Source: a virus | Length of the DNA: 44,974 nucleotides | Virus record (IMG/VR): IMGVR_UViG_3300033145_000588 | Span: 1 to 44,974 of that record | Strand: one strand, 5' to 3' | In this document: positions 1,288-31,971 of the stretch, one piece after another | Layout: each line of letters begins with the position of its first letter | Position numbering within the stretch: the stretch's first letter is position 1 | Made by a program: the position numbers and the translations under genes | The notes under the pieces: model-generated | What the model was told of the DNA's origin: nothing | Database searches by the model: none | What the model saw: only the letters and a program-made list of their open reading frames with translations

Positions 1288-1689
1288 TCACCTATTATTT
1301 TTTAAGTAATGTATTTCATAATGACAATTTTTACATAGCAATATGCATTTATTTAATTCATTTACTATATCTTCAGTTTTTCGTCTTATGGTTAAAGATG
1401 AAGTTGGAAAGTGTTTATCTTCTGGATTGACATGATGAAAATCTAATGAACTGTTGCATTTGTTATAACCACAGATTGAACATCCGTTAATCTTTAAATT
1501 ATCCAACATTTTACAATTATTTATATATCTATTTTTTTCTCGTTGCTTAATTTTTTCTTTATTTGTATTTCTATAGATTCGTGTTTTTTCTAATATCTCA
1601 ATTTTATTTTTTGCATATCTTTTTTTAGCTAAAACACTCAATCTATTTTTATTTCGTTTATAATAATTCTTTTCATATTCCGTTGACAT
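1288..1689 (-). CDS. HNH endonuclease, free-standing (homing type)
   Basis: The protein has 133 residues. Its N-terminal half is lysine- and tyrosine-rich, and the C-terminal HNH/zinc-binding region shows 'GCSICGYNKC', 'LDFHHVNP' and 'CILLCKNCHYEIH'. It is a close paralogue of the gene at 30717-31103. The ATG at 1689 lies only 2 nt after the 3' end of tRNA-Ala, so there is no room for a ribosome binding site. An ATG at 1698 would lie inside the tRNA and is less likely. The gene sits between tail tube and tail chaperones, where it looks like an insertion. It may mobilise itself and the tRNA (inference). Confidence 0.85.
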   Translation of the reverse strand: MSTEYEKNYYKRNKNRLSVLAKKRYAKNKIEILEKTRIYRNTNKEKIKQREKNRYINNCKMLDNLKINGCSICGYNKCNSSLDFHHVNPEDKHFPTSSLTIRRKTEDIVNELNKCILLCKNCHYEIHYLKNNR

Positions 1690-1691
1690 AG

Positions 1692-1763
1692 TGGACATGT
1701 CGGAACTCGAATCCGAAGTCGCCTACTTGCAAAGCAGGTATGTTACCATTACACCACAAGCCC
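1692..1763 (-). tRNA. tRNA-Ala (UGC)
   Basis: A complete cloverleaf can be drawn by hand. The acceptor GGGCTTG/CATGTCC has one U-U mismatch and carries the G3-U70 alanine identity pair. The D arm is GTGT/ACAT with AATGGTA in the loop. The anticodon arm is CCTGC-TTTGCAA-GTAGG with anticodon TGC, and the T arm is TCGGA-TTCGAGT-TCCGA. The discriminator is A73. CCA is not encoded. It follows the tail tube gene and its hairpin, and ends 2 nt before the HNH start codon. Confidence 0.9.
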
Positions 1764-1776
1764 ATTTAAAAAATAA

Positions 1777-1796
1777 AAAGAGGGATGAACCTCTTT
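1777..1796 (-). terminator. Hairpin with U-tract after tail tube gene
   Basis: On the minus strand AAAGAGG pairs with CCTCTTT around a 6-nt loop, overlaps the tail tube stop codon, and is followed by a run of T (TTATTTTTT). It could terminate or pause transcription, or protect a processed 3' end just before tRNA-Ala. Confidence 0.6.
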
Positions 1797-2709
1797 ACAG
1801 TGTTGACGAACTTACAACATTTGAACATTCACTAACGCTTGACGTATGCGATGAGAACGGTCCAGAAGTTGACATCAAATCACCAGATATGTTGACCTCA
1901 AACTCACCAGATTTCCACTTACAACCTGGAATTGTTAATCTCGGATGAGCAACACCAGTAGCACCTAAGTCGATTACAACATTAAACTCTTTTTGTGTCA
2001 TAATCTCACCCCAATGCTTTCCACCACCTTCGTCTAGTGAAATATCTATCGTTCCGTCAATATCTCTCGCACCTTCAATACAGTATTGTTTGACCAACGA
2101 ATCATGGTCCCACTTGTCGATAAGATTGTGTTCAAATGTGATGTCTATAGAATCCACAATGTATGCAAAGTCAGCATCGTTTTTAGTAATACCACCTGCA
2201 ATATTGAATGCCTGATAAGCACCTGCTAATGCTGTAGGTGCTACACCCACTGGTGATGTTGCAGTTGTTGCACTTTTAACTGAAAAGTCAATAGTTATAA
2301 CATACTCAGTATTGAAACTTGCTGCAACTCTCACAGTTTTTGCTTTACAACCTACCATCTCAAAGAATGTTCTATCTGTCGCTGTTTCCACATTCCAGTT
2401 TGTACCAAGTTCAAAGTACAGTGATTGTAGTTTACCGTACACATCCCTATCTACAACATCATCAATGAGTGTATCATCAGATTGTGGTATATACTCAAGA
2501 TGAAATACAGGGTCAGTACATTGTTCAAGTAACGAACACGCACAAGGCGAATCTATGCCTCTTAATTTTTTATGTTTATCGTTGATACCAGGTCTTGCAA
2601 CTAAAACTTTACATGATACTGGAAGTGTTGCACCGCTTGCACCACCACCATAAGTTGATTCAACCCAATACCAAAGTGAGCCTCTAAATGGCAAGCCAAG
2701 CTCTGCCAT
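1795..2709 (-). CDS. Major tail tube protein
   Basis: This 304-residue beta-rich protein lies after the neck genes and before the chaperones and tape measure, the tail tube position. It begins 'MAELGLPFRGSLWYWVESTY' and has long alternating beta strands with few charged helices, as expected for a tube subunit. It has several cysteines near residues 50-65. Its start lies one base after a 13-codon leader ORF, so it is probably translated by coupling. The upstream leader is identical over 26 bp to that of the capsid gene, pointing to matched high expression. No sheath gene follows, which favours a non-contractile tail. Confidence 0.8.
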   Translation of the reverse strand: MAELGLPFRGSLWYWVESTYGGGASGATLPVSCKVLVARPGINDKHKKLRGIDSPCACSLLEQCTDPVFHLEYIPQSDDTLIDDVVDRDVYGKLQSLYFELGTNWNVETATDRTFFEMVGCKAKTVRVAASFNTEYVITIDFSVKSATTATSPVGVAPTALAGAYQAFNIAGGITKNDADFAYIVDSIDITFEHNLIDKWDHDSLVKQYCIEGARDIDGTIDISLDEGGGKHWGEIMTQKEFNVVIDLGATGVAHPRLTIPGCKWKSGEFEVNISGDLMSTSGPFSSHTSSVSECSNVVSSSTL

Positions 2710-2710
2710 G

Positions 2711-2752
2711 CTAATACCTCACATTGTTTAATTTATTCATTTTATTTGTCAT
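2711..2752 (-). CDS. 13-residue leader ORF before tail tube gene
   Basis: A short ORF (MTNKMNKLNNVRY) starts on the ATG carried by the repeated capsid leader and stops one base before the tail tube ATG (TAG-C-ATG). It has the strong ribosome binding site GGAGAATAGG; the tail tube ATG itself has only GTGAGG close by. It looks like a translational coupler, or a by-product of copying the capsid leader with its start codon. Confidence 0.55.
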   Translation of the reverse strand: MTNKMNKLNNVRY

Positions 2753-2772
2753 GTCTATCCTATTCTCCTTTT
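2747..2772 (-). promoter_or_regulatory. Duplicated translation leader, tail tube copy
   Basis: This 26-bp stretch is identical to 6349-6374 upstream of the capsid gene. The sense strand contains GGAGAATAGGATAGACATG, which holds a ribosome binding site and a start codon. Upstream on the same strand GAGAATA occurs twice more, at short spacing, in an A-rich stretch. Confidence 0.8.
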
Positions 2773-2817
2773 GTTTTTATTCTCTTTTATTCTCATTTTT
2801 TTTCTTTAACATGCATC

Positions 2818-3297
2818 TTAATGTTCCGCAGTAATTTCCATTATCCAATGTAGGATTGTTTCTTCGCATGTACTCTCGTAAACCATGCGACCTTCTTGCC
2901 ATACATTGTAAAAGAAAATGCCAGCAGTAGTTCCTTGATTTGCACGTACCAAATTAACAAGTGCATCGGCAACTTTTTTTCCAAATGATGTAATATCAAT
3001 ATTGTCCATATTGTTAAACGAAACGTCAATGCTTATCAGTGCTTTATATTTCCTAACAGTTGCACCGATGTTATGTGGTTCTGCTGCAATAGACAGCAAA
3101 TCCAACTTTATATATGGTAACGATGGACATTCAACTGCAACCTCTTCGCCAAGAAACATTGGCACATATAGAGTATTGCCATCATCATCTGTAATTGATA
3201 TACACAACTCAGTTTCACTATCTACGACATGATTTGTGCCAACTTTTGTACGAATGTTCTTACGTGGGTCAATACCATCGAATACAGAAAAAGCCAT
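2818..3297 (-). CDS. Neck/tail completion protein
   Basis: This 159-residue mixed alpha/beta protein starts by TAATG overlap with the preceding neck gene. It lies directly before the tail tube gene, where tail terminator or completion proteins are usual. The middle contains 'NIGATVRKYKALISIDVSFN', consistent with a beta-sheet core flanked by helices. Function is inferred from position; no motif is decisive. Confidence 0.55.
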   Translation of the reverse strand: MAFSVFDGIDPRKNIRTKVGTNHVVDSETELCISITDDDGNTLYVPMFLGEEVAVECPSLPYIKLDLLSIAAEPHNIGATVRKYKALISIDVSFNNMDNIDITSFGKKVADALVNLVRANQGTTAGIFFYNVWQEGRMVYESTCEETILHWIMEITAEH

Positions 3298-4259
3298 TAT
3301 CTCCCACTTCCAATGTTAGGTTTGGATATTGATTCAATTTGTGTGATAAATCTATCCCAAAGTATTCGAGTAAATGAGACTCTGCCCTGTTCATCACAAC
3401 CTGATACTTTTTTAGATGTCAGATTTGTAATAAACGCAACCTCATAACTTGCAAGAAGTACAACTGCTTTTTTGAACAACTGTGAATCATATGACTCCCA
3501 AGTAGAACGATAGTTTATAAATATTCCTTGATTGTCAACAGGTATCGCAGTTACACAATCAGATTGAAATACTTTGATATGTCCACATGTAGCACTAACT
3601 ACCTCAACTGCTACATTAGAACACACGCCATCGCCATCTACCCATATTCCACATATGTCGTTATGGCATTCATCTGCTGCATCATCACACTCACAACCAC
3701 GAACATTGCCATCCATTTGAATATCCATTATTGGTGTATATTTTAGCTGGTATCCATCTGAACATATAGGTGATGAACTACCGCAGCATGCACATTCTGC
3801 ATTTGAACTGCACTGACATACGCCATCTACACAGATACATAACCGTTCATGGAAATGAAATTCACTAACACGATGCACAACTTCCTTAAACGCATTCCAA
3901 GAAATAAGCGAAAGGTCGTCATCTGATATTTTCTTTTTACCTTGTTGTGAATATGTACGAACTTCATCTACTATATTCCAAGGCAGTACAAAGAACTTCT
4001 CGACATCAATATTTGTAGCAGATGAATATTCTGATTTTATAGATGTAGAATATTCACCATAACTCGCACTATCTAGCAGTTGATAATTATACACATAAGT
4101 ACCAGCAGCATTGGATGTCATACTTTGCCCATCCAGCAATACTGTACCGCATGGTGATGTTATTGTTAACTTAACAGTATCGGGATAGTATAACGTGCCA
4201 TCATCGTCTTTAAATGTGGCAGTACCTATATATGTTTCTTCCCTTTGATAAATTGTCAT
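3297..4259 (-). CDS. Cysteine-rich head-tail connector candidate
   Basis: This 320-residue protein starts at the ATG at 4259, which lies one base after the nuclease stop; a longer upstream frame would overlap the nuclease in another frame. Residues about 1-95 look like an Ig-like beta domain ('TYIGTATFKDDDGTLYYPDT'). The middle (about 140-230) has a dense cysteine cluster (CICVDGVCQCSSNAECACC, then CECDDAADEC). The C-terminal part is helical and resembles neck adaptor regions. Position between capsid and tail tube supports a connector role. The cysteine cluster suggests disulfides or bound metal. Confidence 0.5.
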   Translation of the reverse strand: MTIYQREETYIGTATFKDDDGTLYYPDTVKLTITSPCGTVLLDGQSMTSNAAGTYVYNYQLLDSASYGEYSTSIKSEYSSATNIDVEKFFVLPWNIVDEVRTYSQQGKKKISDDDLSLISWNAFKEVVHRVSEFHFHERLCICVDGVCQCSSNAECACCGSSSPICSDGYQLKYTPIMDIQMDGNVRGCECDDAADECHNDICGIWVDGDGVCSNVAVEVVSATCGHIKVFQSDCVTAIPVDNQGIFINYRSTWESYDSQLFKKAVVLLASYEVAFITNLTSKKVSGCDEQGRVSFTRILWDRFITQIESISKPNIGSGR

Positions 4260-4260
4260 A

Positions 4261-4950
4261 TTATTCACTAACCGAATCCCAAAAATCATCTTGGTTCTTT
4301 TGATATTTAAATATGCACAACGCACATCTGAATACGCTATAGAACTTTTTAAGTTCATCGTATGATTTTTCTTCAATCTTCATTTTTCCGTCACGTATTT
4401 GCAGTACAACAGCACCATCCAATTTGATACCTGTCATAAGTTCAAACGTGAATACATAAGCTGCAAGTTGTATAAAGAAATCTGGATATATCGTCTTGCT
4501 TGTTTTCCAATCGAATACAACATGTGCATGTTTACCTAGTTTTGGTAAGTCAGCATATCCAATGAAATCTGTAGTACCTGCAATACCTAGAACATCATTC
4601 CATAGCTTTTGCTCAAGTGCTTCCGCTTTTATATCATATTTTTCTTTTGCTTTGAAAAATAAATCCAGCGAATCTTGTGTTTCAGTATCATAATTAGATG
4701 CGTTAACCTTATGCCCTTTTAATGATACTTCAATTAGCTTGTGAAAGTTTGTTCCAAATGTTGCACGTGCTTTCATTATCTGATTTGCTTTTGCAGCACC
4801 AACAGATGCTCGCCAGTAGTTTAATCCAGGTTGATTTATTGCACCCTTAACTCTTGTAACTCTGAAATACTTTTTCCCGTCAATAATATACGAATCACTA
4901 TCGACAAGAAATTCCAGAGGAACATCTATTGACCAATCTTTTTTTAACAT
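4261..4950 (-). CDS. PD-(D/E)XK nuclease (RecB/Cas4-like)
   Basis: This 229-residue protein has the motif order of RecB-family exonucleases: H70 in 'GTNFH', D128 in 'AGTTDFIGY', D147-x-K149 in 'VVFDWKTS', and Q161 in 'FIQLAAY'. Such enzymes cut DNA ends in recombination or replication. It is out of place between the capsid and neck genes. Its ATG is one base after the 3' end of tRNA-Thr and has no ribosome binding site of its own, so translation may depend on tRNA processing (inference). Confidence 0.85.
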   Translation of the reverse strand: MLKKDWSIDVPLEFLVDSDSYIIDGKKYFRVTRVKGAINQPGLNYWRASVGAAKANQIMKARATFGTNFHKLIEVSLKGHKVNASNYDTETQDSLDLFFKAKEKYDIKAEALEQKLWNDVLGIAGTTDFIGYADLPKLGKHAHVVFDWKTSKTIYPDFFIQLAAYVFTFELMTGIKLDGAVVLQIRDGKMKIEEKSYDELKKFYSVFRCALCIFKYQKNQDDFWDSVSE

Positions 4951-4951
4951 A

Positions 4952-5024
4952 AGCCGACACTCTGCATCGAACAGAGGACATATCCTTACAAGGGATGCAT
5001 TTTACCAATCTAAACTATATCGGC
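4952..5024 (-). tRNA. tRNA-Thr (UGU)
   Basis: The cloverleaf is complete. The acceptor is GCCGATA/TGTCGGC (7 pairs with one G-U) and the D arm GTTT/AAAT has GG in the loop. The anticodon loop is CTTGTAA (anticodon TGT) on a stem with one mismatch at 27-43. The T arm is CTCTG-TTCGATG-CAGAG. G1-C72, C2-G71 and discriminator U73 match archaeal tRNA-Thr; bacterial tRNA-Thr normally has A73. CCA is not encoded. It follows the capsid gene and ends one base before the nuclease ATG. Confidence 0.9.
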
Positions 5025-5040
5025 ATTAAAGAATAAAAGT

Positions 5041-5057
5041 GGTAGGATATACCTACC
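5041..5057 (-). terminator. Hairpin between capsid stop and tRNA-Thr
   Basis: GGTAGG pairs with CCTACC around ATATA/TATAT. On the minus strand it is followed by ACTTTTATTC. It lies 10 bases after the capsid stop and 16 before tRNA-Thr, mirroring the hairpin after the tail tube gene. Confidence 0.55.
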
Positions 5058-5067
5058 TGTTTCATGC

Positions 5068-6354
5068 TTATGGGTTTACAACGTGACCGATAGCACCTGT
5101 ATCCAATGCTGAAATAGCAACGTAAGTTCTCATAACTAACTTAGTTGAATCACATTCAATGGGGTCTTTGTCAGTTAACAAGTGTGGTCTTTTACCATAT
5201 GCTTCTCCAACTGCACGCTTTGGGTCAAGCAATACAACTATGGGTGCATCGTCAGTATTGGTACAAGCCGTAGCACCACAGTATTCGATAACCTTAATTT
5301 CGCCTATTTTAGCGAGCTTGTTACCTTCCATGCTAATGTTATTTACCCAAGGTGGGGGGTTAACTCCTTCTTTGTATTTCATATACAAAGCAACTCTTGG
5401 ATGCATAATAGCATAGAATCCATCTTTACCATATCCAGCAGCACGCATTCTAGCTTCCAACTGAATTATCTCTTTGTAAAGATTTGCACCATATCTGCAA
5501 CATGTAGTTGTTGGTTCAGCAGGGTCACAAGTAAATGATGTGTCAGATGTTTCAGTATATCCAGGCGTAGCACCACTAATTGCTGTCCAAATTAATGCAT
5601 CTAATCCAGTAATGTATGCTTGGCTCATTGACTCTATAATCGCAGATTTCAATGAATCTCCAACATCAAATATGTCAAGTTCACATATGACTTTATAAAC
5701 ATCATATCTTGCAAGTGTTAACGTGTGTGTAGCAAATACGTTTGATGCACAGCTTGAACATTCACAGGAACCTAACGCACTACCGATTGAACTAGCGTTG
5801 ATTGTTTTAATTTGAACTGATAAACCGTTACCAGCGTTGATGTCACATCCTCGCATTGTAATCACACCAGCTAGTTGTCTACCACAGTTTACAGCTTGCC
5901 AAATCAAATCACAGTAAACATCAGCAGGCGACCATGCACTAACATCATCGCTACAACCAGTATCGGCATCAGTAAATGCGAATCCCATATCATCAGTTAC
6001 AAGTGCAACATCTTTGTATGCACTATAGTTAACGCCTTTTGCTTTGAGCCACTTGTCATGGAACACTGCCCAATCGCCTTTTGGTTTATCTTGTGATGTT
6101 TGACCACCATCAGGGTCAACGCCAGTTGCATCTGGTGTTTGTATGTTTAATTTTTCAGCGAACTCAGCAAAGAGTTGTTCTTTCTCTACGATTTTGTTAG
6201 CTTCCATTTGGTCAGCATCTACTTTTGCTTTCGCATCAGCATCGGCTTTTTCTTTTGCCTCATTGCTTGTCTTTAAAAAAGCAACTTTTTTTAAGAGTTC
6301 GGCTTTATACTCTGCCTCAATCTCTTCTAGGGTTTTTTCCCCTTCATCTGTCAT
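5068..6354 (-). CDS. Major capsid protein (HK97 fold)
   Basis: The protein has 428 residues. The first 90 are charged and helical, like an HK97 delta domain that scaffolds and is then cut off. From about residue 95 the body has typical capsid spacing, with 'WSPADVYCDLIWQAV', 'LARYDVYKVICELDI' and a P-domain-like stretch 'GFYAIMHPRVALYMKYKEGV'. It follows the protease gene. It has many cysteines, unusual for a capsid protein. Translation starts within the 26-bp leader shared with the tail tube gene, and the protease ORF ends inside that leader. Confidence 0.88.
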   Translation of the reverse strand: MTDEGEKTLEEIEAEYKAELLKKVAFLKTSNEAKEKADADAKAKVDADQMEANKIVEKEQLFAEFAEKLNIQTPDATGVDPDGGQTSQDKPKGDWAVFHDKWLKAKGVNYSAYKDVALVTDDMGFAFTDADTGCSDDVSAWSPADVYCDLIWQAVNCGRQLAGVITMRGCDINAGNGLSVQIKTINASSIGSALGSCECSSCASNVFATHTLTLARYDVYKVICELDIFDVGDSLKSAIIESMSQAYITGLDALIWTAISGATPGYTETSDTSFTCDPAEPTTTCCRYGANLYKEIIQLEARMRAAGYGKDGFYAIMHPRVALYMKYKEGVNPPPWVNNISMEGNKLAKIGEIKVIEYCGATACTNTDDAPIVVLLDPKRAVGEAYGKRPHLLTDKDPIECDSTKLVMRTYVAISALDTGAIGHVVNP

Positions 6355-6374
6355 GTCTATCCTATTCTCCTTTT
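6349..6374 (-). promoter_or_regulatory. Duplicated translation leader, capsid copy
   Basis: This 26-bp copy is identical to 2747-2772 and carries GGAGAATAGGATAGACATG with the capsid start codon. A further AGAATAGGATA lies about 25 bp upstream, inside the end of the protease gene, so the motif is doubled here. Confidence 0.8.
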
Positions 6375-8743: not shown

Positions 8744-8902
8744 CTACCTCTCGTTAAGATACTTAGTCAGGTGTTTCACTTGTTCTTCGTTGAAAGCAAT
8801 CTTCTGGTCGCCATCAACGACATACATTATGCCTTTGTCCCAATCTTCTTTGATTGATGGGCAGCACTTAGCACCACCACACATACGTATTACTTCACTC
8901 AT
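8744..8902 (-). CDS. Small protein with CGG-x3-CC motif
   Basis: This 52-residue protein (MSEVIRMCGGAKCCPSIKED...) has three cysteines near the N-terminus and a predicted beta-strand then helix. It starts 18 bases after the tRNA-like minihelix with AGAGGTAA as ribosome binding site, and lies between the gp10-like gene and the coiled-coil gene. The cysteines suggest metal binding. Function unknown. Confidence 0.65.
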   Translation of the reverse strand: MSEVIRMCGGAKCCPSIKEDWDKGIMYVVDGDQKIAFNEEQVKHLTKYLNER

Positions 8903-8920: not shown

Positions 8921-8964
8921 TCAAAAGCCAAGGATTTGAACCTTGAGTAAAACCTTTACTTTTG
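8921..8964 (-). ncRNA. tRNA-like acceptor/T-arm minihelix
   Basis: On the minus strand CAAAAGT pairs with GCTTTTG (7 bp), and the inner arm CAAGG-TTCAAAT-CCTTG is a perfect consensus T arm followed by A in the discriminator position. Only 12 nt replace the D and anticodon arms. It overlaps the stop codon of the gp10-like gene. It could be a deleted tRNA or a minimal substrate for tRNA 3' processing. A second, shorter hairpin (AGTAAA/TTTACT) competes with the acceptor. Confidence 0.45.
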
Positions 8965-9351
8965 GAATCCTACAAATACTCTTCGTATGTACTCTGGAAA
9001 CTCGTTATTCATAACGAACACAGCAGGTCGCATAAACGGTCTAAATGCTGATTTTCCAGATGTGCTAATTACAGGTTTTGGGTTTTCTGGTGTTCCAGCA
9101 GGCATGTACTTAGTGCCATACTCCTGATAAATTGCCCAAGGAACATCAACGATTATTTTAAACCTGTTTTTACCTACCTTTTCATATCTTATTGAGTGCA
9201 TCATTTCGCCAGATGCTACAGCAGCATATTGTCGCATAAGTGAAACAGTATCACGTACTATATCCTCATGCATTTTGTTTAGTTCTGCATCACTGGATAC
9301 CTTGCGATTAAAGTTAATCGCCTGTCTTAATCCTGTAACCATCAGTGGCAT
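8956..9351 (-). CDS. HK97 gp10-like neck/tail completion protein
   Basis: This 131-residue protein has the family pattern 'VPWAIYQEYGTKYMPAG' followed by 'FRPFMRPAV' and an amphipathic helical N-terminus. Such proteins join head and tail. It starts by TAATG overlap with the portal gene. It is earlier in the operon than the usual position after the capsid gene. Confidence 0.72.
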   Translation of the reverse strand: MPLMVTGLRQAINFNRKVSSDAELNKMHEDIVRDTVSLMRQYAAVASGEMMHSIRYEKVGKNRFKIIVDVPWAIYQEYGTKYMPAGTPENPKPVISTSGKSAFRPFMRPAVFVMNNEFPEYIRRVFVGFQK

Positions 9352-10911: not shown

Positions 10912-12192
10912 TCACCTTCTTTTCCACCATCCAAAGCCAAAACCAACATCATCGACATATGGTGAATAATCAGTTACACCATATCGCAAGGCATCGGGTG
11001 CGTGGTCATCTTGTTTAATCACGATTTCCGTACCTGGCTTATATCTGTAACCTTGAAGTTCTAGTATTAACCTGTAACATGAACTGTCTATGTATATATC
11101 ATTACCTACGAATATTGACTTCAACTTGGCGATACCATTTTCAACGTCATTGTACCCACCAGTAACAGGCACACCCCTATCTTGAATCTGTTGTATTAAA
11201 TCAGATGCAGCAGGGTCAACATACACATTCTTAAACTTGTAATCTTTGTGTAGTTCTGCTACTTGTTCAGATAGCGTTGAAGTTGTTACCATTGTCTTAT
11301 AATCTTCTCGTTTAACTACAAGTTTGTTACTTTCGGTAATCCCCATCACCAAGACACAATGGGGTGTGTTTAATCCCCAATCAATACCGCATATATGGTA
11401 TTTAACTGGTAAATCTTTGAAATTGCCAACATGCCTGGTCGGATTGAACTCCTTGTAGACCTGACCCTCAAACATTCCCCAAATACCACTGAGGTATCTA
11501 CGTTTCCAATCTTCATCCCATGTGGATTCTATTCTACCGATATACCGTTCATAGTGTGGCAATAATTTATTATCATATGTTGTTGTAGATACAAAGTGAA
11601 AGTCACTCTGTCTTGTATCTTCATGTATGAAATACTTATGAATCCAATGCAATTCGCTGCCAGGATTCGTTGTTAATAGTATAAATGGATTCTTCAAGTT
11701 TTTAGTACCTGATAATCTACCAAACAACTGACGAAACACATTCTCAGCAATATCAACAGGTTCATCCAATCCAACGAAATCAAGCGTATACCCTGCCAGC
11801 TTTCTTTCTTCATCACAAGAACGGAACTGAATGATTGAGCCGTTGTACGCTTCCCATTCCATATTACCAGCAGTTGTAATTACTCTTTTTGTCAGATTCA
11901 GATTTATGCCATTTTTGTTGAGTTTGTCTTGGTATTTGTCTAATTCCTCTCTAAATAGAGAAAACACAACCGATTTCAGTTGCGTATGCGTTTGTGAACC
12001 CAATACCCCTTTAACACCAGGGTTTTCTAAACATATCTTAATGACAGCGTGAACAAGCAATAAAGTTTTACCAGCACGAAACGCACCAGAATACAATACC
12101 CCTGCATTGTTATATATTGCACCCATTACTTCAATTTGTGGGGGTAAAAATAATCGTGGCGAATGAATTTCGATAACTTTATCAATTTGCAT
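10912..12192 (-). CDS. terL: Terminase large subunit
   Basis: This 426-residue packaging motor begins the late block. The ATPase half shows Walker A 'GAFRAGKT' and Walker B 'LDFVGLDEP'. The nuclease half has 'HICGIDWGLN', 'VYVDPAASDL' and 'DDHAPDALRYG', giving the metal-binding aspartates. I prefer the ATG at 12192. A GTG at 12201 is possible, neither has a ribosome binding site, and an AT-rich TATA-like stretch lies about 22 nt upstream, so the message may be leaderless. The gene faces the early block. Confidence 0.93.
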   Translation of the reverse strand: MQIDKVIEIHSPRLFLPPQIEVMGAIYNNAGVLYSGAFRAGKTLLLVHAVIKICLENPGVKGVLGSQTHTQLKSVVFSLFREELDKYQDKLNKNGINLNLTKRVITTAGNMEWEAYNGSIIQFRSCDEERKLAGYTLDFVGLDEPVDIAENVFRQLFGRLSGTKNLKNPFILLTTNPGSELHWIHKYFIHEDTRQSDFHFVSTTTYDNKLLPHYERYIGRIESTWDEDWKRRYLSGIWGMFEGQVYKEFNPTRHVGNFKDLPVKYHICGIDWGLNTPHCVLVMGITESNKLVVKREDYKTMVTTSTLSEQVAELHKDYKFKNVYVDPAASDLIQQIQDRGVPVTGGYNDVENGIAKLKSIFVGNDIYIDSSCYRLILELQGYRYKPGTEIVIKQDDHAPDALRYGVTDYSPYVDDVGFGFGWWKRR

Positions 12193-12249: not shown

Positions 12250-12259
12250 AGTATATAAA
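12250..12259 (+). promoter_or_regulatory. Archaeal TATA box of the early block
   Basis: AGTATATAAA occurs here and again at 19221 and 20521. The distance to the ATG at 12284 (about 25 nt from the TATA box) places transcription start at or next to the start codon, suggesting a leaderless message. The palindromic TATATA may also serve the divergent terminase gene. Confidence 0.65.
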
Positions 12260-12283
12260 GGTTTCGGTTCAAGTTTTGAAACG

Positions 12284-13936: not shown

Positions 13937-14110
13937 ATGAAATGGAAAGATACCACAGACGGGAGAATGTCGATATACTATTTAGCAACATATCTCGCAG
14001 ATGATATGAAAGAAGAATCATATATCAGCAATAAAGATGCGAAAGTTAGTGATGCAGATAAAATAATAGAATTTCTAAGAGTATTAATAATAACAGAGTG
14101 GGTGAACTAA
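13937..14110 (+). CDS. Unknown 57-residue acidic protein
   Basis: GGTGA lies 6 nt before the ATG. The stop TAA overlaps the next ATG (TAATG). It contains tyrosine-rich 'MSIYYLATYLADDM' and a hydrophobic end. Function unknown. Confidence 0.55.
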   Translation: MKWKDTTDGRMSIYYLATYLADDMKEESYISNKDAKVSDADKIIEFLRVLIITEWVN

Positions 14111-14922: not shown

Positions 14923-14928
14923 GTCCGC

Positions 14929-16557
14929 ATGGTAAAAACAATGAAAGCAATACTAGCAAAAGAAAAAGACAGACTTGATATACTGCAAGATGAAAACCTA
15001 CTATACAACATAATAAAAGAAGTAAAAAGAAAAGTTGCAGGTAACGAAGATGTCATGCTTGCTTTAATTGTAAAGATTTGCCTCAGATTGGTAAACAACG
15101 CAAATCCAACAAGTAGCAACGTACTCATATCTGATGATTCAGGAAGTGGGAAAGATTGGATTACGATGTGCGTTTGTGACACACTAATAGGTAAAAAATC
15201 AAAAGAATACGAACATGTAACAGATATAAGTGATAAATTGCTAAACTACTGGACCATACCAAAAAAAGATGGTGGGACATTCAATGGAATGGTACTACAC
15301 CTAGAGGACCCATCAATGGATAGAATAACAAGTCAAGCGTTCAAAGTCAGAGCAAGTGGTCAAAACGCAGTAAAGTTCGTAGATAGAGGAAAAGCGAAAC
15401 ATATACACATTGAAGGTAAACCAGTAATGATAATTACTTCGCTGTTGGCGACCATAGATGAAGAGGGTGCAAGACGATGGGATTCTCTTAGAATGGATAA
15501 AACAAAAGCCGTTACAAAGCTGATGAAGAAGATGTATGCGAACATCGCAGCAGGTTTAGACCAAACTGAACCAAATGAGCAACTCAAAACTGCACTGTCA
15601 AACAACCTAATAAAAAGAACAGTAATCATACCATACGCACCAGCATTAATTGCAACACTGCCAGATACAATAATAATGAGAACACAACAGCAGAAGCTAC
15701 TCGACTACATTAAAGCATCAGCAGTTTTACATCAATTTCAAAGACATCGAACAAAAGAAGGACATATCATTGCAAATCTTGACGATTATGATTATGCTCG
15801 CTTCTGCTTTTTAATATTAGGTGATGGTTACGGTGTTGTGTTAAGCAAAGCAGAAGAGGAAGTTATAAAAGTATTAACTGAGCATGGTTCAATGATGCCT
15901 GTTCGAGATATAGCTGCAAGATGTAGCAGAGGGCGAGATTGGTTGTATGAACATCTCCCACAACTAAAAGAAAAAGGATTATTAAAAGAATCATCACCGA
16001 TGGATGAACTAGCAAATAAACCAGTTCAGTATTACGGCATACATCCGTCATATGACATAGCTACAAGTGTGACAATACCTACAATTGAGGTTGTCGGCAA
16101 ACAAATTGAGGTATTCTGGTGCAAAACCGATGACCAAACAACAGAAGTGATTGACCGAAAGACTTATATAGGAAGAGTTGGTCATCGGCAATTTCAGAAG
16201 TGCCTAATAGAGATAGATAAAGACCGCATGAAAGACGGATTACCTATGATTATGTCACATCCCGAAAATAGCGGACAACCACCAGAACCTTTATATACTA
16301 CTACTTCTACTAACGGGAGTAAAGAGGTAGTCGATAAGTCACCCGACAACCACCAGATGACCACAGACGACCAAAGCACTTTTGACCTATTCCAACAGAT
16401 ACAAAACATGCGAAAATACCTATCCGACAACCAAAAAGCAGGGTTCAAGATTGATATGGCATTTCTTGAGTACAAGTTCAGTAAACACTTCATTCAACAC
16501 TGTATAACGAATAAAATACTACAAAAGAAAGGTGATGATGAATGGGAAATACGATAA
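14929..16557 (+). CDS. AAA+ ATPase with winged helix, replication helicase/initiator candidate
   Basis: The protein has 542 residues. Walker A is 'SDDSGSGKD' (68-76), where the usual Ser/Thr after Lys is Asp. Walker B is 'VLHLEDP' (121-127). Residues about 310-360 form a winged helix ('EEEVIKVLTEHGSMMPVRDI' then 'RGRDWLYEHLPQLKEKGLL'). A linker of about 60 residues rich in Thr/Asn/Pro precedes a helical end. It is the only large ATPase in the early block and lies beside the phosphoesterase, so it is the best replication initiator or helicase candidate. Similarity to a named family was not established. Confidence 0.65.
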   Translation: MVKTMKAILAKEKDRLDILQDENLLYNIIKEVKRKVAGNEDVMLALIVKICLRLVNNANPTSSNVLISDDSGSGKDWITMCVCDTLIGKKSKEYEHVTDISDKLLNYWTIPKKDGGTFNGMVLHLEDPSMDRITSQAFKVRASGQNAVKFVDRGKAKHIHIEGKPVMIITSLLATIDEEGARRWDSLRMDKTKAVTKLMKKMYANIAAGLDQTEPNEQLKTALSNNLIKRTVIIPYAPALIATLPDTIIMRTQQQKLLDYIKASAVLHQFQRHRTKEGHIIANLDDYDYARFCFLILGDGYGVVLSKAEEEVIKVLTEHGSMMPVRDIAARCSRGRDWLYEHLPQLKEKGLLKESSPMDELANKPVQYYGIHPSYDIATSVTIPTIEVVGKQIEVFWCKTDDQTTEVIDRKTYIGRVGHRQFQKCLIEIDKDRMKDGLPMIMSHPENSGQPPEPLYTTTSTNGSKEVVDKSPDNHQMTTDDQSTFDLFQQIQNMRKYLSDNQKAGFKIDMAFLEYKFSKHFIQHCITNKILQKKGDDEWEIR

Positions 16558-20958: not shown

Positions 20959-21578
20959 CTTAACATGTAAACTAAATAACACTCTTTTTACCCTATTTTT
21001 ATTTACACTTTAATATACATAATTAACCATAATTATCGTTTATTTTACCTTTTCTTCTGCTTATTTCAGGCAATTATTCTTAATTATTTACCCAAAGAAA
21101 AAGGTAAATACCCCAATCTTTTTTCTTTATTGTGTGGCTTTTATAATACCCCCTTTATATTAATCATTTTATACTGCTCATTGTATATTATACATATATA
21201 TAAGCTGTATGATGGCATCATTATTATATTAATATAGATATTTAAATTTTGTGAGCTGTTTGTTGTACATTATTTTTATTTCAATATTAATATACATACC
21301 CACATATAAGTAGGTAACTATAAATGGGTTATTATATTAATTAACGAATAAAAGGGTGTTGCCATATTGTTAATATATAATTAAATATATATTAGGAGTA
21401 CAATAGCAGAAGCAAAAAGCAGTTGTATAGTGTACATTATATATTATACATTATATGTTGTAAGTTGTATATTACTATTAGTTGTACGTTGTTTGTTGTT
21501 ATAATGTCATAATGTAATTATTACACCATACGTTTATATAGTGGTAACACACAATAGTATATAGGAGTGTGATGAGTA
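20959..21578. other. 620-bp AT-rich non-coding region, origin candidate
   Basis: I see no gene of convincing quality here. The stretch is much richer in A+T than its flanks. It contains the palindrome TGTATATTATACA near 21182, repeated TTGTACATTA/TTGTATATTA-like words near 21182, 21263, 21432 and 21467, and several TATATATA runs. It is the only gap over 300 bp in the genome. An origin of replication or a large regulatory hub are the main readings. Confidence 0.45.
21533..21541 (+). promoter_or_regulatory. TATA-like element before transglutaminase-like gene
   Basis: TTTATATAG lies about 45 nt before the ATG at 21579. A start 25-30 nt downstream would leave a short leader containing GGAGTG. 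Confidence 0.4.
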
Positions 21579-28622: not shown

Positions 28623-28959
28623 AAACTATAATTCAGGTAGACAATATGAATATCGTGTAAAAAAGTATCTTGAAAAGTTAGGATACTATGTTATGCGAAG
28701 TGCAGGCAGCAAATCACCATTTGATTTGATAGCAATACCGATACAAGATAAGTGTGATGTCATGGGTGTACTATTAATTCAATGTAAACATGGTACTAAA
28801 ATAAGTAAAAAAGAAAAGGACGATATCATTGCATTAGATAAATCACTATTGGATTCAGTGTATTGTATAATCGCTTGGTCAAAAGCAAGAGGAAAAATAG
28901 AGTTTGAGATTTATCATTATGGTGAGGAAGAATGGACAGAAATGAGGTGGTTGATGTGA
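28612..28959 (+). CDS. Hjc-like Holliday junction resolvase
   Basis: This 115-residue protein fits the archaeal Hjc family: E13 in 'GRQYEYRVKKYLEKLGYYV', R29-S30 in 'VMRSAGSKS', D38 in 'SPFDLIAI', and 'LLIQCKHG' with Q57-x-K59. Length and motif order match. Hjc cuts four-way junctions in recombination and would resolve replication intermediates before packaging. It starts with the GGTGGACAAAATGA cassette. It is also a clear archaeal signature. Confidence 0.85.
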   Translation: MTNKNYNSGRQYEYRVKKYLEKLGYYVMRSAGSKSPFDLIAIPIQDKCDVMGVLLIQCKHGTKISKKEKDDIIALDKSLLDSVYCIIAWSKARGKIEFEIYHYGEEEWTEMRWLM

Positions 28960-29444
28960 AAGACAAAAAAGCAGAAGCAAAGCCAATAGTAATATTTCCA
29001 ATTAACGCCAATCCACCGCACATTGGACACATCATAGCAATAAACATGTTACTTAACGTGGCAAGTCATGTTATTGTTTTACTGTACGATGAGATGCAGG
29101 TATGTTCACCAGAACAGGCAAGATATATACTGAGTGATATATTTAATCAGTATGTGGAAAAGGATAGGATAGAAATACTGGTAAGCAAAACAAACTTTGC
29201 AAACACAAACGAGATACCAAAGATACTTACCGATAGAGATATACCGTTTACTGTTGCAACAACATCCAAGCACATATATTCAAACATGAAATCAAAAGGT
29301 TATCCCTATATGGTGTTGCTCAATAGACCTATTGGGTGGCGAGATGAGTTCTTTAGGATAGCTTATATTAGGAGTATTGTACTAGGTCAAATTGAAGATA
29401 GCAAATGGACAAAACAAATAGATAAATTAGTAAAAGAGGTATAA
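28956..29444 (+). CDS. HxGH nucleotidyltransferase (NMNAT/cytidylyltransferase-like)
   Basis: This 162-residue protein has 'PIVIFPINANPPHIGHIIAI' with the HIGH motif of adenylyl- and cytidylyltransferases, and 'PFTVATTSKHIYSNM' further on. Size suits archaeal NMN adenylyltransferase, which makes NAD from NMN and ATP, but the usual ISxTxxR motif is not clear. I favour GTG 28956 after GAGGTGG; an ATG at 28932 is also possible. It overlaps the Hjc stop. It may rebuild NAD during infection or activate a sugar or lipid head group. Confidence 0.65.
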   Translation: MKDKKAEAKPIVIFPINANPPHIGHIIAINMLLNVASHVIVLLYDEMQVCSPEQARYILSDIFNQYVEKDRIEILVSKTNFANTNEIPKILTDRDIPFTVATTSKHIYSNMKSKGYPYMVLLNRPIGWRDEFFRIAYIRSIVLGQIEDSKWTKQIDKLVKEV

Positions 29445-30531: not shown

Positions 30532-30720
30532 ATGGATAAAGTAAGAATGAATCCAAAGTTGCATAGTGGGTATATCACCTGTCGGAGATTAGATAAGGTA
30601 TTCTATATATTTAATATCGCAATACCACATCCTAATGCTGGATGGTTGTGTAAATGTGGACAGTGGACAAAGTTAGACCCGTATTATCACGATGTATTTT
30701 ATAAAGGAGTGAAAATATGA
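30532..30720 (+). CDS. 62-residue protein after tRNA-like element
   Basis: It starts right after the tRNA-like 3' end and has no ribosome binding site. It contains 'HPNAGWLCKCGQWTKLDPYY' with a CxC pair. It overlaps the HNH start by ATGA. Confidence 0.52.
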   Translation: MDKVRMNPKLHSGYITCRRLDKVFYIFNIAIPHPNAGWLCKCGQWTKLDPYYHDVFYKGVKI

Positions 30721-31103
30721 AAGAAGAAAGACGACTATATAAAAAACGGTATTATTTAAAACATAAAGATGCAATACGTCAGTACCAAAAAATATATCGT
30801 CAAATGAATAAAGAAAAATTAAATAAAAAATGTAGATTATATTATAAAAATCATTGTGGACAACAGCAAGAAATGCGACAAATCATAATGCATAATTTAA
30901 AAATAAACGGTTGTGCTATTTGTGGTTATGACAAATGTGATGCTGCGTTGATATTTCATCATGCAAATCCAGACGATAAAAAGTTTGATATGGCACAACG
31001 AATTTTACAAAGAAGCAACAATATAATTATAGATGAATTAAATAAATGCATCTTGCTATGCTGTATTTGCCATAGAGAATTACATCATAACGGTGGTGAT
31101 TAA
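30717..31103 (+). CDS. HNH endonuclease, paralogue of 1288-1689
   Basis: This 128-residue protein has a basic N-terminus and the core 'INGCAICGYDKCDAALIFHH', 'ANPDDKKF' and 'CILLCCICHRELHH'. Aligned by eye it matches the HNH protein at 1288 over nearly its whole length. Both genes lie just downstream of a tRNA or tRNA-like element, on opposite strands and in different transcription blocks. AAAGGAGTG precedes the start. Confidence 0.85.
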   Translation: MKEERRLYKKRYYLKHKDAIRQYQKIYRQMNKEKLNKKCRLYYKNHCGQQQEMRQIIMHNLKINGCAICGYDKCDAALIFHHANPDDKKFDMAQRILQRSNNIIIDELNKCILLCCICHRELHHNGGD

Positions 31104-31971
31104 TATTTCTATACTTGATTGCATCGGAAACACCCCGTTAATGAATATTAATAACATTTATTTCAAATTAGAGGGATTCAATCCAACGGGTAGTACAAAA
31201 GATAGGATAGCAAAGGCAATGATTCTTAATTATATATTAGATGGTAATAAAGAAAGAAAAAATAAACATACAATAGTCGAAGCGACATCTGGAAATACAG
31301 GCATATCTGTGGCAATGGTGTGTTCAGCATTAGGATTAAGATGTCTAATATATGCACCAAGTAACACAAGTAATCTAAAATTAAAAATGATGCAGAAATA
31401 CGGCACAATACCAATTATAACATATAAAACCATTAGTGATTGTATTGATAGAGCTAAAAAAATAGGTGAAGATAAACATTATCATTACCTTGACCAATTC
31501 AACAACAAATATAATGTTAAAGCACAAGAAACAATGGCACAAGAAATACATGATGAACTTACCAGAGAATATGACAATATGTATTGGGGAAGTGAATATT
31601 TTGACCCTAAATACTATCAATCATTACTACCAGATGCAATAGTTGCAGGTGTTGGAACAGGTGGAACAATAATGGGGTTACATAAAGTATTTCCAGATGC
31701 CAAGTTGTTTATAATACAGGTTCCAGATTCAGAACACATAGAGGGAATATGTGACGGTGTAAAGTTATCACTGATACCTAAAAAGTTAAGAATGGCAACA
31801 ATCAACGTGCCATATACACAGGCATATCTAACAGCAAAGTGGCTTACTGAAAAGCACGGTATTCACTGTGGAATTTCCAGTGGTGCAAACTACTACGCTG
31901 CAACTGTAATACAAAAGATGTTTGATAAAATATTAACCGTACTACCAGATTCAGGAGTAAGATATTTATGA
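31093..31971 (+). CDS. Cysteine synthase-like PLP enzyme
   Basis: The protein has about 292 residues and fold type II PLP features in order: 'FKLEGFNPTGSTKDRIAKAM' (PLP lysine near residue 36), 'EATSGNTGISVAMVCSALGL' (phosphate/asparagine loop), 'GVGTGGTIMG', 'GISSGANYYAA' and the end 'TVLPDSGVRYL'. These match O-acetylserine/O-phosphoserine sulfhydrylases. The start is GTG at 31093 or 31096 within GGTGGTG, overlapping the HNH stop. It could raise cysteine supply for the many cysteine-rich viral proteins (inference). Confidence 0.88.
   Translation: MVINISILDCIGNTPLMNINNIYFKLEGFNPTGSTKDRIAKAMILNYILDGNKERKNKHTIVEATSGNTGISVAMVCSALGLRCLIYAPSNTSNLKLKMMQKYGTIPIITYKTISDCIDRAKKIGEDKHYHYLDQFNNKYNVKAQETMAQEIHDELTREYDNMYWGSEYFDPKYYQSLLPDAIVAGVGTGGTIMGLHKVFPDAKLFIIQVPDSEHIEGICDGVKLSLIPKKLRMATINVPYTQAYLTAKWLTEKHGIHCGISSGANYYAATVIQKMFDKILTVLPDSGVRYL

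Follow-up and report, generated by a model that had tools for sequence, protein, structure and literature searches.

The window analysed here is the whole virus record IMGVR_UViG_3300033145_000588 (44,974 bp). Direct terminal repeats of 114 bp are found at its ends, so the genome is probably complete. The late genes lie on the minus strand and run from the terminase gene (12201) through the portal gene to a putative capsid gene and the tail tube gene (1795); the series then continues across the record ends into the tape measure and tail genes (Table 1). At the head of this operon, directly upstream of the terminase gene and on the late strand, lies CCGAAANNTTTATATA, the sole perfect archaeal late promoter in the window. 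An AlphaFold model of the capsid protein was uninformative (mean pLDDT 33) and a PDB profile search gave no meaningful match; the name therefore rests on gene order, and a weak match to the head-protein family phrog_3437 derives from a two-member alignment.

Table 1. Features of the late operon and of its three junctions (A, B and C) in the window, with the counterparts of the junction elements in the related record L003.
Feature	Position	Strand	Remarks
BRE/TATA promoter, archaeal	12252..12267	-	CCGAAACCTTTATATA; head of late operon
Junction A, armless tRNA-like element	8964-8921	-	CAAAAGT..CAAGG-TTCAAAT-CCTTG-GCTTTTG-A
Junction A counterpart in L003	7490-7524		syntenic; anticodon arm absent
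Capsid leader, 26 bp	6349..6374	-	Shine-Dalgarno GGAG; overlaps end of preceding gene
Putative major capsid gene	5068..6354	-	gene order; 64% identical homologue in L003
Hairpin after capsid stop	5041..5057	-	GGTAGG-TATAT-CCTACC; -8.1 kcal/mol
Junction B, tRNA-Thr(UGU)	4952-5024	-	50.7 bits (threshold 29 bits)
Junction B counterpart in L003	11323-11370		armless
Exonuclease-like gene	4261..4950	-	phrog_298 (Cas4/RecB-type), E=7e-40
Second leader copy, 26 bp	2747..2772	-	opens 13-codon upstream ORF rather than tail tube gene
Upstream ORF, 13 codons	2752-2711	-	MTNKMNKLNNVRY, then stop, 1 nt before tail tube ATG at 2709; by eye
Tail tube gene	1795..2709	-	PF18906, E=2e-7
Hairpin at tail tube stop	1777..1796	-	AAAGAGG-TTCATC-CCTCTTT; overlaps stop; U-rich tract next
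Junction C, tRNA-Ala(UGC)	1692-1763	-	58 bits (threshold 29 bits)
Junction C counterpart in L003	14960-15013		without anticodon arm
HNH endonuclease gene	1288..1698	-	phrog_3106; adjoins tRNA-Ala

Scans of IMG/VR viral contigs and genome contigs yielded a sole true relative, IMGVR_UViG_3300025736_000207 (L003), a 23.7-kb fragment of its genome. Gene order is shared, and identities amount to 86% for the terminase, 64% for the capsid, 74% for the nuclease and about 74% for the tail tube. At the matching place (4196-4211), L003 likewise carries one perfect CCGAAANNTTTATATA upstream of its terminase gene. In tblastn searches of a phage collection, the capsid and portal proteins remained unmatched and the terminase reached an identity of at most about 29%. 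Two Methanobrevibacter contigs (L020 and L021) were rejected as relatives, as they showed chance pattern matches and no tblastn match.

Both the capsid and the tail tube gene are followed by a hairpin at or just past the stop codon and by a tRNA gene scoring above the threshold, as the initial annotation had described. Its further claim that a nuclease ATG touches each tRNA was correct for the start codons, as the exonuclease-like gene begins 1 nt past the tRNA-Thr and the HNH gene starts at 1689, or at 1698 within the tRNA-Ala. The two nucleases are, however, of unrelated types (phrog_298 vs phrog_3106); in L003 the HNH gene is placed upstream of the tail tube gene and a different gene follows the tail-tube junction, for which reason the nuclease was rejected as part of a cassette. 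The HNH gene of the window shares a 56-nt stretch of 79% identity, in inverted orientation, with a second HNH gene at 30717-31103 on the plus strand (1309-1364 and 31030-31085). This likeness, together with the relocated gene of L003, suggests that these nuclease genes are mobile.

An identical leader had also been proposed for both virion genes. An exact 26-bp repeat, AAAAGGAGAATAGGATAGACATGACA, indeed occurs twice in the window, where none is expected by chance. One copy runs directly into the capsid ATG and retains 25 of its 26 bases in L003; the other, contrary to the earlier reading, opens a short upstream ORF. Since L003 has no such leader at the tail tube gene and has retained the capsid copy alone, the repeat was rejected as a conserved signal of both genes. 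The leader-gene-hairpin-tRNA cassette was consequently abandoned as a repeated unit: only the window duplicates the leader, the HNH gene appears to be mobile, and a third element, described below, has no hairpin. The same order, which was to be sought in relatives, thus recurs in part: L003 shares the hairpins and the acceptor/T-arm elements, but not the tail-tube leader, the place of the HNH gene or the full tRNAs. In L003, no ATG, GTG or TTG is found at the aligned start of the tail tube gene (13985-14030). Translation there seemingly begins at ATT (14023), or by reinitiation or frameshifting from a short upstream ORF (MNKMNKINEWVMSYF, followed by a stop) that resembles the upstream ORF of the window at 2711-2752.

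ARAGORN identified zero tRNAs in the L003 fragment. Its capsid stop is nevertheless followed by an identical hairpin stem, GGTAGG...CCTACC (11301-11317), a U-rich tract and an element B with the acceptor strands TCTATTT/GAATAGA and the T-arm CAGG-TTCAAAT-CCTG, which ends just before the nuclease ATG. Similarly, the tail tube gene is followed by the hairpin AAAGAGA...TCTCTTT (14924-14943), which differs from that of the window by one compensatory pair change, then by a U-rich tract and an element C (GGGCTTG...TCGG-TTCAATT-CCGA...CTTGCCCA) and a stretch resembling a D-arm. A search for T-arms combined with an acceptor that can pair revealed a further element at junction A, between genes 8956-9351 and 8744-8902 of the window; its 5' strand extends over the stop codon of the first of these genes. 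The element has no anticodon arm in either genome, and neither genome shows a hairpin or a U-tract at this site. Strong late-strand T-arms are found in L003 at junctions A, B and C only; the window has the same three and one within the tape-measure gene (42840, minus strand), which was rejected because it lies inside that gene and within the chance rate. Among the late genes, through the last tail gene, each long gap holds an element except the one preceding the tail tube gene, which is occupied by the upstream ORF.

Acceptor stem and T-arm, the structural hallmark of t-elements, are hence present at all three junctions of both genomes. A full cloverleaf with an anticodon is found in the two window tRNAs only, while four of the six elements, namely A of the window and A, B and C of L003, lack the anticodon arm. 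It is the acceptor/T-arm half that was retained and the decoding arm that was lost. When each gap was subjected to 20,000 dinucleotide shuffles, the observed score was reached at rates of 5e-5 (A), 0 (B) and 2e-4 (C) in the window and 0 (A), 5e-5 (B) and 2.3e-3 (C) in L003. In an alignment made by hand of these two genomes only, both partners differ in 17 of the 36 pairs of acceptor and T-stem while pairing is retained, as expected if selection maintains the structure regardless of decoding. The double changes include eight of the 12 pairs at junction B and six at junction A, where both genomes are armless and differ in the paired sequences. Pairing fails at six of 72 pair positions, counting the 36 pairs once per genome; element C of L003 has the weakest pairing of the three, with three unpaired positions. 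The tRNA-like fold was not favoured in RNA folding of several elements, and the same was true of the two genuine tRNAs. Element A of L003 folds alone as acceptor plus T-arm and is the sole element scoring by folding alone; its best tRNA-related Rfam match is mascRNA-menRNA at 16 bits, below the Rfam threshold. Decoding by these tRNAs appears dispensable in this virus group, as L003, with neither tRNA in its 23.7-kb fragment, uses their codons at least equally often (share of GCA 0.64 vs 0.50 in the window; ACA 0.57 vs 0.55).

Several signals point to the host. The promoter motif CCGAAANNTTTATATA recurs in Methanofastidiosa-virus records, GGTGA-type Shine-Dalgarno motifs occur among the early genes of the window, and its tRNAs have no encoded CCA. 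The tRNA-Thr carries U73, which is an archaeal habit, and a Hjc-like resolvase was found among the proteins as a weak match. As all of these agree on an archaeal host and the gene set (terminase, portal, tail tube) is that of a tailed virus, the combination places the virus among archaeal Caudoviricetes; the host is probably a methanogen.

It is therefore proposed, with somewhat better than even confidence, that elements A, B and C act as processing signals in a single polycistronic late transcript, in the manner of t-elements or tRNA punctuation. The initial annotation had read the two tRNAs as such punctuation; comparative support for this is strong (L003, junction A and the lack of a competing promoter), and the cutting itself is what we infer. 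Because L003 retains the shape and has lost the decoding arm, the window tRNAs probably mark cut sites for host tRNA-trimming enzymes in the viral message. Internal promoters had been named as a possible refutation. They were rejected as a cause of capsid and tail tube abundance, since a consensus scan detected no BRE/TATA element above background near the capsid gene, the tail tube gene or the tRNAs; by the same consensus, no promoter separates the genes flanking the junctions, as in co-transcribed genes. Given that the tRNAs are co-directional with the late genes and have no visible promoter, they would mature only through excision from the late RNA, and the messages would necessarily be cut.

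In this model, one late RNA would start at the promoter ahead of the terminase gene, and host RNase P and tRNase Z would cut at the 5' and the 3' side, respectively, of each acceptor stem. RNase P accepts substrates consisting of acceptor stem, T-stem and T-loop (PMC11143913, PMC10465520), and the Haloferax t-element is cut by tRNase Z and, in engineered use, by RNase P (PMC4326828, PMC3296008). Four messages would result, comprising terminase, portal and gene 8956; gene 8744 to the capsid gene; the exonuclease-like gene to the tail tube gene; and everything from gene 932 (HNH in the case of the window) up to and including the tape measure and tail genes. The capsid and tail tube genes would thereby come last in the second and third message, with the short conserved hairpins protecting the new 3' ends. 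Cleavage by tRNase Z at junction B would leave the exonuclease message almost leaderless, which fits the gene's lack of a Shine-Dalgarno sequence and its start 1-3 nt past the element in both genomes. The gene after junction A and the gene after junction C of L003 have Shine-Dalgarno sequences of their own. Elements B and C of the window, being full tRNAs, may also decode; element A and all elements of L003 are unable to.

The main rival, and a serious one, is termination at the hairpins, either as an alternative or as a complement to processing. Here, hairpins and U-rich tracts would act as partial terminators, defining the 3' ends and increasing capsid and tail tube message levels, while the tRNAs, reached by read-through, would be translation helpers. 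U-rich tracts terminate archaeal transcription, and many viral tRNAs serve translation. A T-rich tract follows both hairpins in both genomes, so that junctions B and C have the sequence of a hairpin-then-U-tract terminator throughout, and three of these four sites (B in both genomes, C in the window) appeared terminator-like in the consensus scan. Moreover, the tRNA-Ala of the window may work in translation, as it retains the G3-U70 identity pair. Yet termination leaves junction A unexplained, where both genomes have an element and neither hairpin nor U-tract, as well as the acceptor/T-arm pairing that persists in L003 without a decoding arm; read-through RNA with tRNAs would, in addition, still be cut upon tRNA maturation. 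As a full account, termination with helper tRNAs is thus considered unlikely, though clearly the strongest of the alternatives.

The armless elements might also be functionless relics, in which case those of L003 and element A of the window would be dying translation tRNAs with acceptor and T-arm as leftovers. Viral tRNAs come and go, B and C of the window are still intact tRNAs, and the mismatches in element C of L003 would suit such decay. However, only 54% of fourfold degenerate sites are identical between the two genomes, and at such divergence the pairing in unconstrained remnants should be gone; instead, it was retained through the double changes at A and B, and the same half is preserved in all four armless elements. 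Decay is accordingly held to be improbable. A role at the DNA level, with the tRNA pieces as attachment sites or targets of mobile nucleases, is more doubtful still and largely contradicted. Most haloarchaeal proviruses are located in tRNA genes (PMC8651126), and the HNH gene of the window adjoins the tRNA-Ala. The elements occupy, though, three sites within the virion operon, their 5' acceptor strand is retained and co-varies although an attachment site has no need of it, the HNH gene of L003 lies elsewhere, and the proteins of the window that were examined included no integrase.

Processing at tRNA-derived elements has precedents outside viruses. In the tRNA punctuation of mitochondria and with the t-elements of plant mitochondria (Ojala 1981 and Forner 2007, cited in PMC8003010), tRNAs or tRNA-like elements likewise lie between the genes of a shared transcript and fix the ends of its messages, which in plant mitochondria are also marked by 3' inverted repeats. 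Those systems are organellar and their transcript ends have been mapped, whereas the viral proposal is drawn from sequence comparison. The 5S rRNA leader of Haloferax volcanii contains a t-element that is likewise tRNA-like, archaeal and inside a longer RNA (PMC4326828, PMC3296008); it sets the 5' end of 5S rRNA, while in the window the elements lie between protein-coding sections of a viral operon. The same minimal tRNA half is found in the RNase P model substrates AT1 and pATSer and in mascRNA from the MALAT1 3' end; the former are model RNAs and the latter is a mammalian non-coding RNA, and homology to the viral elements is not claimed. RNase III processes T7 messages. Phage substrates of RNase P include T4 tRNA precursors and the M3 and C4 RNAs (PMC11143913). 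In all of these a host RNase likewise acts on viral transcripts, but the RNase P cases are tRNA clusters or small RNAs, in contrast to virion messages separated by tRNA-like elements.

To our knowledge, tRNA genes in viruses are nearly always interpreted as aids to translation; in a survey of the tailed viruses of archaea they are classed as translation genes (PMC8651126). A full-text search for tRNA punctuation and phage, with most subscription journals outside its range, returned mainly papers on mitochondria and other organelles. Whereas punctuation in mitochondria and t-elements in plant mitochondria and Haloferax are known, use in a viral virion operon would be a new variant. That t-elements derived from tRNAs, through cuts by host RNase P and tRNase Z, partition the virion operon of an archaeal tailed virus, and that this is the first viral tRNA punctuation of structural messages, is rated slightly above an even chance. 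The part retained between the genomes is the part recognised by tRNA-trimming enzymes, the decoding arm being dispensable. If the proposal holds, separate levels of the main virion messages would be set post-transcriptionally from one promoter, mitochondrial-type punctuation would extend to viruses, and viral genomes would have another reason to retain tRNAs. The exchange of full tRNAs and armless elements at the same sites would then show decoding tRNAs turning into pure processing signals.

Armless elements are missed by tRNA finders, and other viral operons appear worth searching for them. Among seven methanogen virus records (L022-L029, whole or in part), one armless element was found at a gene junction, in the unrelated Methanofastidiosa-virus record vir520 (L022, BK063667). 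This element, CATGGCC...GCGG-TTCGAAT-CCGC...GGCCATG (15181-15130, minus strand), is preceded by a pyrimidine tract, occupies a 90-nt gap separating two genes of the same direction and was matched by 0 of 20,000 shuffles; the punctuation habit may thus be wider, though not general. Another candidate in the same record, at 8837, was rejected as the end of a longer tRNA-like gene, judged by eye to be probably intron-containing. That unannotated gene (about 8755-8856, plus strand) lies in a non-coding region downstream of a CCGAAAGCTTTATATA promoter. A gap in the early region of the window (20986-21451) contains two repeat pairs of 29-36 nt with abundant TATA-like sequence, possibly repeated promoters. 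Two further genes of the window, encoding a cysteine-synthase-like PLP enzyme (31093-31971) and a NadM-like nucleotidyltransferase (28932-29444), are possible auxiliary metabolic genes.
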